DNA of 64,000 nt from positions 62,001-126,000 of the forward strand of contig NZ_JAMXFC010000011.1 of the NCBI RefSeq assembly GCF_025370755.1. Reading direction: 5' to 3'. Each line of letters starts with the position of its first letter. Positions within the stretch are counted from its first letter, which is position 1. This DNA is from Laspinema sp. D2d. Lineage in GTDB: Bacteria; Cyanobacteriota; Cyanobacteriia; Cyanobacteriales; Laspinemataceae. The notes below the pieces were generated by a model. It was not told the DNA's origin. It did not search any database and saw nothing but the letters and a program-made list of their open reading frames with translations. The position numbers and the translations under genes are program-made. Positions 28,484 to 32,079 of the stretch are shown one piece after another.

Positions 28484-30079
28484 TTGCCCATTTCTTCAGA
28501 AAATAAGACCGTGACCTCACCACAAACCCGCCAAAATCAGCTTGATCAATTCATCGTGACTTCAGCGCAAATGAGCGCCATTGAAGGACGCATTTTTACC
28601 GCCGGAATGCCGGTGGCTGCGTTAATGGAAAAGGTTGCCCAAGCTATTTTTCAGCGGGTAGTTGCGCTATATCCTCGTCCAAGAGTCAGGCAAGTTGGTG
28701 TTTTGGTCGGTCCAGGACACAATGGCGGGGATGCTTTGGTGGTGGCCCGAGAGTTACATTTTGCTGGATATGAGGTGCTGATTTATCAACCCCTTGCTAA
28801 AGGTAAGGAATTAACAGGGCAGCATGGGAAATATGTGGCGAGTTTGGGAGTGGGGTTTTTTGACACAATCGAACCGCTTCTCGATTGTGATTTGATTATC
28901 GATGGATTATTTGGATTTGGATTAGAACGGGCAATTTCTGGGGAGATTGCTCAGGGAATTGACCGCTTAAATAAACAGTCTCAGCCTGTAATTAGTATTG
29001 ATTTACCTTCGGGGTTACATACGGATACAGGAGCAATTTTAGGAACAGCAATTCAGGCTACCTATACCTTTTGCTTAGGATTATGGAAGTTAGGATTATT
29101 TCATGATCAAGCGTTGGCTTATGTAGGGAAAGCGGAATTAATTGATTTTGATATCCCGTTGGCAGATATTCAGGCGGTGTTAGGCGATCGCAATCCCATC
29201 CACCGGATTACCTCAGCGGTGGCACTCGCCCATCTTCCGCTTCCTCGTCCCCAATTAACCCACAAGTATAAGGAAGGACATCTTCTGGCAATTTGTGGTT
29301 CGCAACGCTATATGGGTGCGGCCCTATTATGTGGATTGGGGGCCAAGGCATCCGGGGTGGGAATGTTAACGATCGCCGTTCCTAAGTCCCTCAAACTTTA
29401 CATGAGTCAGCAATTAGCAGATGCATTGGTTGTTGGATGCCCAGAAACCGATTCTGGGGCGATCGATCATTTGCCGGATAGCATTGATTTAAGTTCTTTT
29501 GCTGCGATCGCCTGTGGTTGTGGTTTGACCCTGGATGGGATGGAAGTCGTCCAAGCCGTCTTAGAAAGCGATCGGCCCTTAATTTTAGATGCCGATGGAT
29601 TAAATGCCTTAGCGCAAATGGGGACGATTTCTACCCTCTCCCAACGAGAAGCCTTTACCCTGTTGACTCCCCATCCTGGAGAATTTAAGCGGCTGTTTCC
29701 CAATGTTCAAGGTGAAACCGAGGATCTAGTCAGGGCCGTTCGGGGGGCCTCTGAGCAAAGTGGGGCGGTGGTGATGCTCAAACAAGCCAGAACGGCGATC
29801 GGCTATCCTGATGGATCAGTTTGGATTAATCCCGAAAGCACACCTGCATTGGCACGAGGCGGCAGTGGCGATGTCTTAACCGGCTTATCCAGTGGTTTAA
29901 TTGCTCAGGCGATCGCCCGGAAACTTCCTGTAGAACCCCTTGTGCAAACCGCAGTCTGGTGGCACGCCCAAGCTGCTATTTCTGCTGCCGCTGTTCGTAC
30001 CGAGTTAGGGGTAGATGCCGTGACGTTAAGCGAGTATTTATTAAAGGTTTTGGCACAGTTTGCGCGATCGGGCCATTAG
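28484..30079 (+). CDS. nnr: Bifunctional NAD(P)H-hydrate epimerase/dehydratase
   Basis: A 531-residue repair enzyme. The N-terminal half (to about 235) is the YjeF_N/NAXE epimerase (VGPGHNGGDALVVARELH, IDLPSGLHTDTG). The C-terminal half (about 245-525) is the ribokinase-like ADP-dependent dehydratase (CGCGLTLDG, LTPHPGEFKRL, ARGGSGDVLTGLSSGLIAQ). Together they restore hydrated NADH and NADPH. The start is unsure: TTG 28484, GTG 28511 or ATG 28571 (MSAIEGR), the last close to where the family normally begins. The 3' end runs into the repeat region at 30101. Confidence 0.92.
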   Translation: MPISSENKTVTSPQTRQNQLDQFIVTSAQMSAIEGRIFTAGMPVAALMEKVAQAIFQRVVALYPRPRVRQVGVLVGPGHNGGDALVVARELHFAGYEVLIYQPLAKGKELTGQHGKYVASLGVGFFDTIEPLLDCDLIIDGLFGFGLERAISGEIAQGIDRLNKQSQPVISIDLPSGLHTDTGAILGTAIQATYTFCLGLWKLGLFHDQALAYVGKAELIDFDIPLADIQAVLGDRNPIHRITSAVALAHLPLPRPQLTHKYKEGHLLAICGSQRYMGAALLCGLGAKASGVGMLTIAVPKSLKLYMSQQLADALVVGCPETDSGAIDHLPDSIDLSSFAAIACGCGLTLDGMEVVQAVLESDRPLILDADGLNALAQMGTISTLSQREAFTLLTPHPGEFKRLFPNVQGETEDLVRAVRGASEQSGAVVMLKQARTAIGYPDGSVWINPESTPALARGGSGDVLTGLSSGLIAQAIARKLPVEPLVQTAVWWHAQAAISAAAVRTELGVDAVTLSEYLLKVLAQFARSGH

Positions 30080-30100: not shown

Positions 30101-30363
30101 CTGGCAACTTATACCCAAACAAAACAACACCCAAGACCTACTTGCTGAGTGATTTCCTCTCCTTTTCAATGTTCGCAGGCTACCTAACTTAAACAGTTTA
30201 GGAGTATTGCTGCCGATTCCACTATTGGAGGAAATATCAGCTCTTGGTTTGGGTGCTGTTGGGGTTTGGATATGAGACAGATGTTAGATTAAACAGCTTG
30301 AACCTCTTTAAGCTAATTTGAACTTGGCTGTTGTAATCTGCCAGAGAAGCTCTTTGTTGCTTC
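30101..30363. repeat. Tandem direct repeat copy 1, candidate structured RNA
   Basis: About 262 bp, repeated at 30596-30858 with an offset of 495 and roughly 90% identity by eye. It carries no coding frame shared by both copies. It can fold: CCCAAACAAAACAACACCCAAG (near 30114) against TTTGGGTGCTGTTGGGGTTTGG (30248-30269), ATTTCCTCT (30152-30160) against the GGAGGAAAT near 30227-30235, and AGATTAAACAGC (30286-30297) against GCTGTTGTAATCT (30327-30339, one bulge). A TTGAAA/TTATAC pair lies just upstream on the plus strand. The strand of any transcript is unknown. Confidence 0.7.
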
Positions 30364-30595
30364 TATATATTAAATCTAGCACGCTTTTTAGCAATGGCAA
30401 GAGAATGATATAAAACTTTACTTAATTTCCGGGAGGCGGGGTAACTTCATAAATTTATCTAAATTTAAGATAGACCATTGGATAAAGACTTATTTTACCC
30501 ATGGATTTCGATTAGGGAGCAGCGCGATCGCCACTTCGCCGATTCTTCAAGGGTCTCCCTCCGATAGCAAAAAAAGGGATTTTAAAAATCGAGTT

Positions 30596-30858
30596 CTGGC
30601 AACTGATGCCCAAACAAAACAACACCCAAGACCTACTCGCTGAGTGATTTCCTCTCAATTTCAATGTTCGCAGGCTGCCTAACTTAAAAAGTTTAGGAGT
30701 ATTACTGCCGATTCCATGATTTGAGGAAATATCAGCCCTTGGTTTGGGTGCTGTTGGGTTTTTGGTACGAGACAGATGTTAGATTAAACAGATTGAACCT
30801 CTTTAAACTAATTTGAACTTGTCTGCTCTTATCTGCCAGGGAAGCTCTTTCGGCTTCA
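30596..30858. repeat. Tandem direct repeat copy 2, candidate structured RNA
   Basis: Second copy. In the last stem the pair C30297-G30327 of copy 1 is replaced by A30792-T30822, a compensatory change; two other positions of this stem are lost (A-C and T-T mismatches). The other stems and most of the unpaired segments are kept. The upstream TTATAC of copy 1 is changed here, so promoter activity may differ. Confidence 0.7.
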
Positions 30859-31410
30859 TTTATTAATTTATCATCATTTCCCTATAATGCAAGCACAAGA
30901 AATAAAGGTTTACATAAATTAGAGCAAAATATCTTACAAGTATGAACTTAAGTAAACTTTTCTCTAAAACCGAGGATTAGCAGGGTGCGATCGGGATGGG
31001 GAGCCGAAGGTGGGAAGCTTTTCTTAGAGGCTTGATCCGGGATGAGATGTCAGAGACAAGAAGTAAAGGGGTTGGCCGAAATTTGGCAGAACTACCTCTA
31101 AAGGGGGGTAAAGGGGGGACGACGAAAGGAAGAAAGCTGTGTCTCTAGTTGTACCCCATCATCCATCTGCTCCACCTTATTGCTCCAGATAGCTGCAAAA
31201 TAACTGCAAATAGCAGAAATCTCAAATATGAGTAGATTCACTTCAGCTATCTACTTCTAAAGAAAGATGCGTTATGCCCAGATTGTTTCCTACAGTAAGT
31301 TCAATATTATCAACGGTACCTCGGGCTAACTTTTGAGATTGGGGACACCCGTGGCAACTTTGTTTTCAGGGTCAGAATGGGTCTGACTAATTTTATTCGG
31401 AGGTTTCACA

Positions 31411-32079
31411 ATGTTAAATAGATTTAACAAGACATCCCTTAACAAACGCAGCCCGCTAGTTCGTGGCTCTTCCCTACTTGGAAAGGTGAACGGGGCGATC
31501 GCCCTAGGATTGATGCTCCTGGTACTCCCAGCTTGCGACGCGACGGATCAAACCACCACGACTACCACCACAGAAGAAGCTGAAACGGACACCGCCATGA
31601 CTCCGGGAACTGACACCACCATGTCACCGGAAACCGATACCACCATGACTCCCGCGCCAGGAACTGACACCACCATGACTCCCGCGCCGGGGACTACAAC
31701 TACTCCAGGCATGGAGACTACAGGAATGACTACGGAGGTAGAGGAAGTTTCAGACAATCCTGATCAATTTATGGGTCAAACGGTGACCCTCAACGGTGAA
31801 GTGGCAGAAGTGCTGGGACCTAATGTTTTCCGCATCCAAGAAGATGAGGCTGTTGGTGGGAGTGATCTGATTGTCATTACAACGGATTCCCAAATGCCGG
31901 TGATGGAAGATAGCCAAGTCCAAGTGACTGGGGAAGTTCGTCAATTAGTGATTACTGAAATCGAACGAGATTACAATCTGGGGTGGGATGATACCACGCG
32001 GACTCGGATAGAGCGGGAATACACCGATCGCCCTGCGGTGGTTGCCCAGTCTGTTCAGCAAATGATGAATAATCCTTAA
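31411..32079 (+). CDS. Lipoprotein with Thr-rich repeat linker and OB-like domain
   Basis: A 222-residue protein with a strong ribosome site (GGAGG, seven bases before ATG). The N-terminus has a basic stretch, a hydrophobic core and a lipobox (LVLPAC), so it is probably lipid-anchored. Residues about 50-110 are a low-complexity Thr/Pro linker with units close to TDTTMTPAPG. The C-terminal part (VSDNPDQFMGQTVTLNGEVAEVLGPNVFRIQEDE) resembles small OB-fold domains. A terminator hairpin follows at 32120-32153. Function unknown; a periplasmic or outer-membrane binding role is possible. Confidence 0.7.
   Translation: MLNRFNKTSLNKRSPLVRGSSLLGKVNGAIALGLMLLVLPACDATDQTTTTTTTEEAETDTAMTPGTDTTMSPETDTTMTPAPGTDTTMTPAPGTTTTPGMETTGMTTEVEEVSDNPDQFMGQTVTLNGEVAEVLGPNVFRIQEDEAVGGSDLIVITTDSQMPVMEDSQVQVTGEVRQLVITEIERDYNLGWDDTTRTRIEREYTDRPAVVAQSVQQMMNNP

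Follow-up and report, generated by a model that had tools for sequence, protein, structure and literature searches.

A tandem pair of genes for a conserved cyanobacterial non-coding RNA, most likely PmgR1, in Laspinema sp. D2d

The window analysed here (64,000 nucleotides of Laspinema sp. D2d, contig NZ_JAMXFC010000011.1, positions 62,001 to 126,000) carries on its minus strand, in tandem, two copies of a non-coding RNA that is about 250 nt long and conserved in cyanobacteria. According to our preferred reading, to which we assign a probability of roughly 0.78, these are two separately promoted genes of a single RNA, most likely PmgR1, which would act in trans as part of a ribonucleoprotein.

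The copies (30101-30355 and 30596-30850) are direct repeats at an offset of 495 bp and are 91% identical over 255 nt in ungapped register, so that the tandem repeat described in an earlier note on this DNA is real. Their similarity runs slightly into the flanks beyond this register. The genome holds the RNA twice on contig C8 and once on contig C82, the latter copy being more diverged than the window pair. The repeats share no reading frame, as already noted: the longest ORF has a median of 23 codons in homologues versus 30 in shuffles, and a conserved frame, sought in the homologues as expected of a protein-coding repeat, was not found. The window also includes imperfect 24/30-bp tandem repeats (31555-31706), which lie within ORF 31411-32079 and encode a threonine-rich stretch of the TDTTMTP type.

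Strand, fold and covariation

A DNA search of 39 genomes (the genome itself and relatives) produced hits in 24 of them. The genus is represented by eight genomes, that of the window among them, and each has the tandem pair as well as one or more additional copies elsewhere. Iterated nhmmer searches over the fetched loci yielded 67 copies of about 250 nt, for whose alignment RNAalifold returned -17.8 on the minus strand versus -8.1 on the plus strand, a first sign of a minus-strand RNA. Folding z-scores of the two window copies, relative to dinucleotide shuffles, are -3.4 and -3.7 on the plus strand and -4.0 and -5.2 on the minus strand, which is the best. A covariance model, R1 (264 positions, 60 pairs), was built from 35 minus-strand sequences (alignment A2), and 127 R1 matches were aligned across 100 loci (alignment A3).

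Class-wide covariation strongly supports the proposal that the repeat is a duplicated structured RNA. Two-sided changes are observed in 54 of the 60 pairs among the 127 homologues of A3; cells with changes on both sides number 647, compared with 258 (sd 16) after shuffling and no more than 148 in the slid controls, and 81% of cells are paired compared with at most 47% when slid, all in an alignment that was fitted to the R1 structure and hence leans towards it. In A2, which was aligned without structure, compensatory changes are already present in 17 of the 35 predicted pairs. Support is good for helices P1, P2, P2a, P3 and P5 but not for apical helices 10 and 11 of the rod. The C-G to A-T exchange previously reported between the two copies is visible in the pair alignment (CTCTCC../..TTGGAGG versus CTCTCA../..TTTGAGG), and the corresponding pair, in helix 9, covaries throughout the family (C-G 91, A-U 7, U-A 5).

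Within the supported helices read on the minus strand, G·U pairs outnumber A·C combinations by about 3:1 (347 versus 110). R1 gives 225.4 bits to copy 2 (30606-30867, minus) and 212.4 bits to copy 1 (30111-30371, minus), versus about 29 and 20 bits for the two copies on the plus strand. Because both the G·U/A·C asymmetry and the model scores favour the minus strand, the RNA is assigned to it; a plus-strand RNA, the orientation in which the repeats had been folded earlier, is rejected on the same grounds.

Anatomy of the two genes

The features of the pair are listed below.

30612..30859, minus: copy 2 RNA gene, predicted transcript about 248 nt (R1 225.4 bits)
30117..30367, minus: copy 1 RNA gene, predicted transcript about 250 nt (R1 212.4 bits)
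30865..30893, minus: copy 2 promoter boxes, CTTGCA, 17-nt spacer, extended -10 TGATAAATT (sequence; boxes conserved in homologues)
30373..30400, minus: copy 1 promoter boxes, TTGCCA, 16-nt spacer, TAGATT preceded by TG (consensus scan; conservation in homologues)
30406..30421, minus: copy 1 upstream dyad GTAAAGTTTTATATCA, family consensus GTAAAGTTTnGTTnCA (conserved, 118 homologues)
30898..30914, minus: copy 2 upstream dyad, degenerate, TGTAAACCTTTATTTCT (homologue alignments)
30841..30857 (copy 2) and 30346-30363 (copy 1), minus: P1, 5' hairpin, GAAGC/GCUUC in copy 2 (pairs kept in 99% of cells)
30771..30837 (copy 2) and 30276-30342 (copy 1), minus: P2/P2a two-tier hairpin (helices 2 and 3, pairs kept in 96-97% of cells)
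30797-30803, minus: AAGAGGU loop in P2/P2a of copy 2 (loop conservation)
30618..30758 (copy 2) and 30123-30263 (copy 1), minus: P3-P5 terminal rod (helices 5, 7 and 8)
30608..30619 (copy 2) and 30114-30124 (copy 1), minus: T-rich tract after the rod, TTTTGTTTGGGC in copy 2 (sequence; T-rich in homologues)

The whole RNA is predicted to measure about 250 nt, with ends placed by the promoter boxes and the T-run. The long inverted arms of the earlier note correspond to the P3-P5 terminal rod; its layout of about 170 nt describes this rod and not the whole RNA. The feature extends some 40-60 bp further right than first drawn, over the 5' hairpin, the promoter and the upstream dyad. Every pair of helices 5, 7 and 8 changes on both sides. 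The rod ends in a terminator-like sequence (UUGGGUGUUGUUUUGUUU) and the T-rich tract that follows is likely to be a terminator. No unpaired motif of the RNA is better conserved than the AAGAGGU loop.

An extended -10 box (TGnTAnnnT) and a CTTGCA-like -35 box before the 5' hairpin are common to the homologues (120 aligned), suggesting that each copy could be transcribed in the window organism from its own boxes at its right end. Further upstream, the alignment of 118 homologues shows the dyad GTAAAGTTTnGTTnCA, whose centre lies about 47 nt from the predicted start of the RNA. It is well kept by copy 1 and less so by copy 2. We take it to be neither an NtcA site (GTAN8TAC) nor a direct-repeat HLR1 site. 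The exact motif TGTAAASTTTNRTTNCA, searched in 292 genomes, has many more matches than its backward control, in cyanobacterial and related genomes. No obvious regulon emerged for this motif, the 20 fetched sites adjoining mostly unrelated genes.

Distribution, identity and rival explanations

R1 matches were found in 79 of the 292 genomes of the phylum, all within one class: the order of Laspinema accounts for 71 (of 83 sampled), its sister orders for 8 (of 56), and none of the 153 genomes from outside the class has a match (group totals counted by hand from the genome lists). A pattern scan of named contigs retrieved 47 loci, all cyanobacterial, including Laspinema, Crocosphaera watsonii WH 8501, Calothrix and Nostoc. 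Copy number per genome ranges from one to about ten, tandem arrangements are frequent, and Nostocaceae usually carry a single copy. Oscillatoria sp. PCC 10802 has a tandem array of about ten copies, mostly spaced by 337 bp and in part degenerate (L091:7209-8000, L070:1-2708). One R1 match lies at 3931807-3932089 of contig G308:C1. Nostoc 7120 produces an sRNA of 258 nt, 2462444f (PMC4734099), whose length fits that of the RNA described here.

The identity of the family is suggested by Synechocystis. In three genomes of this genus the homologue lies between hoxE (opposite strand) and the gene of a 224-aa protein, and in the two examined further PsrR1 (RF02701) precedes it on its own strand at a distance of about 7 kb, which includes the hox operon. 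In the numbering of strain 6803, psrR1 corresponds to ncr0690 and pmgR1 to ncr0700 (PMC12850537). The homologue thus occupies, in these two genomes, the place of the next sRNA after PsrR1/ncr0690, on the plus-strand side. As the hox operon separates it from PsrR1, and Ncr0700 follows PsrR1 in the numbering of sRNAs, the window pair most likely represents tandem copies of PmgR1. Based as it is on genomic position, the assignment of the family to Ncr0700/PmgR1 appears highly probable. Consecutive ncr numbers are no proof of neighbourhood, and most genera have the RNA away from hox.

It is rather unlikely that the family is another conserved cyanobacterial non-coding RNA, one that in Synechocystis happens to sit between hoxE and the gene beyond it. 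Such a reading would draw on the purely positional nature of the link to PmgR1 and on Rfam 15, which includes PsrR1 yet nothing matching this RNA. However, in the 60 kb around PsrR1 the homologue is the only R1 match shown, its strand and side are those expected, and the number after that of PsrR1 belongs to Ncr0700. A similarly small chance is given to an undescribed, nearly order-wide RNA of about 250 nt, distinct from PmgR1, which would be held in a ribonucleoprotein, switched by a regulator through the dyad and tuned in dose by tandem amplification.

Alternatively, the RNA might act in cis, as leader or attenuator of the gene that follows it, with the rod as a conditional terminator. In Nostocales, relatives of Leptolyngbya and other orders it is found just upstream, and on the same strand, of a conserved gene for a 256-aa hypothetical protein, and in relatives of Crocosphaera a sensor-kinase-like gene comes next. 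However, the downstream genes vary by lineage, and copy 1 runs towards the end of a convergent NAD(P)HX dehydratase gene on the plus strand (28484-30079), its own strand being free of genes there. A leader of the 256-aa neighbour is rejected, as this gene is absent from the genus of the window, and a leader function in general is very improbable. The 256-aa gene is present in 67 of the 292 phylum genomes and lies downstream of the RNA at L067, L079, L105, L107, L110, L114, L116 and other loci; its product has no Pfam, NCBIfam or PADLOC match. A mobile, MITE-like element whose inverted arms merely resemble an RNA is the least probable explanation, since the long arms and the scattered copies of some genomes have to be weighed against the strand bias of the G·U pairs, compensatory changes across the class, a conserved promoter, the usually single copy of Nostocaceae and the lack of any phage or plasmid match, which also led us to reject a phage or plasmid origin.

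Proposed role and comparison with known RNAs

PmgR1 acts with PmgA in the control of glycogen and in photomixotrophic growth (PMC12831587, PMC6166021). In strain 6714, Ncr0700 is a free-standing RNA, the most abundant transcript and maximal in darkness (PMC5386190); high light lowers PmgR1 by about 4 log2 units (PMC12850537). In sedimentation PmgR1 is spread over fractions 5-12, close to RNase P RNA and heavier than bulk short RNA (PMC12475003), which, together with the strongly constrained fold, suggests a ribonucleoprotein. If the window pair encodes PmgR1, its product might likewise peak in the dark, fall in high light and act downstream of PmgA to limit glycogen, as in Synechocystis. It would most likely be a trans-acting regulator, held in a ribonucleoprotein, with the AAGAGGU loop as a possible pairing seed or protein contact. 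The rod, with the T-run, probably also ends transcription. The tandem arrangement, with a promoter for each copy, suggests that dose is raised or that control is split between the copies.

Few RNAs of Synechocystis are as abundant in the dark as PmgR1, which controls glycogen, and the literature searched names no protein partner, target or regulator of it. The model provides a covarying fold, the conserved AAGAGGU loop, the upstream dyad and a genome map of one to about ten copies, so that structure-guided mutants, pull-downs and a search for an activator become directly testable. It would also close a gap in Rfam, in which the family has no entry. Neither the window copies nor their homologues match any family of Rfam 15 at or above gathering, and the only trace is a sub-threshold snoZ122 match restricted to 30836-30885.

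6S RNA (SsaA, RF00013), to which the repeats had been likened, shares with this RNA a long imperfect stem in a structured RNA. The layout however differs, with a 5' hairpin, a separate two-tier hairpin and a long rod ending in a T-run, and the window copies give no RF00013 match at gathering or at E-values up to 5. The 6S likeness is therefore not supported and, for want of a match, 6S was rejected with all other Rfam families. The canonical 6S RNA of this genome lies on another contig (G000:C4:20265-20449, plus; 88.5 bits to RF00013). NsiR1, cited in PMC3610870, is also a cyanobacterial sRNA encoded by tandem repeats. Its repeats are short, lie upstream of hetF and are linked to heterocysts, a distinction drawn from description and not from sequence. 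PmgR1/Ncr0700 differs in that the window organism has two tandem copies and a third, away from hox, and in that the RNA here is predicted to be about 250-300 nt long, compared with an overlap of only 195 nt between the 6803 and 6714 RNAs (PMC5386190). In 6803, Ncr0700 is fused to the plus-strand gene ssr2227 (PMC5386190), and the mismatch in length is possibly due to transposition in this strain. Likened by position and not by sequence, PmgR1 is, as this RNA appears to be, a free-standing cyanobacterial sRNA, and its Synechocystis neighbourhood, as the next sRNA after PsrR1, fits the place of the homologue.
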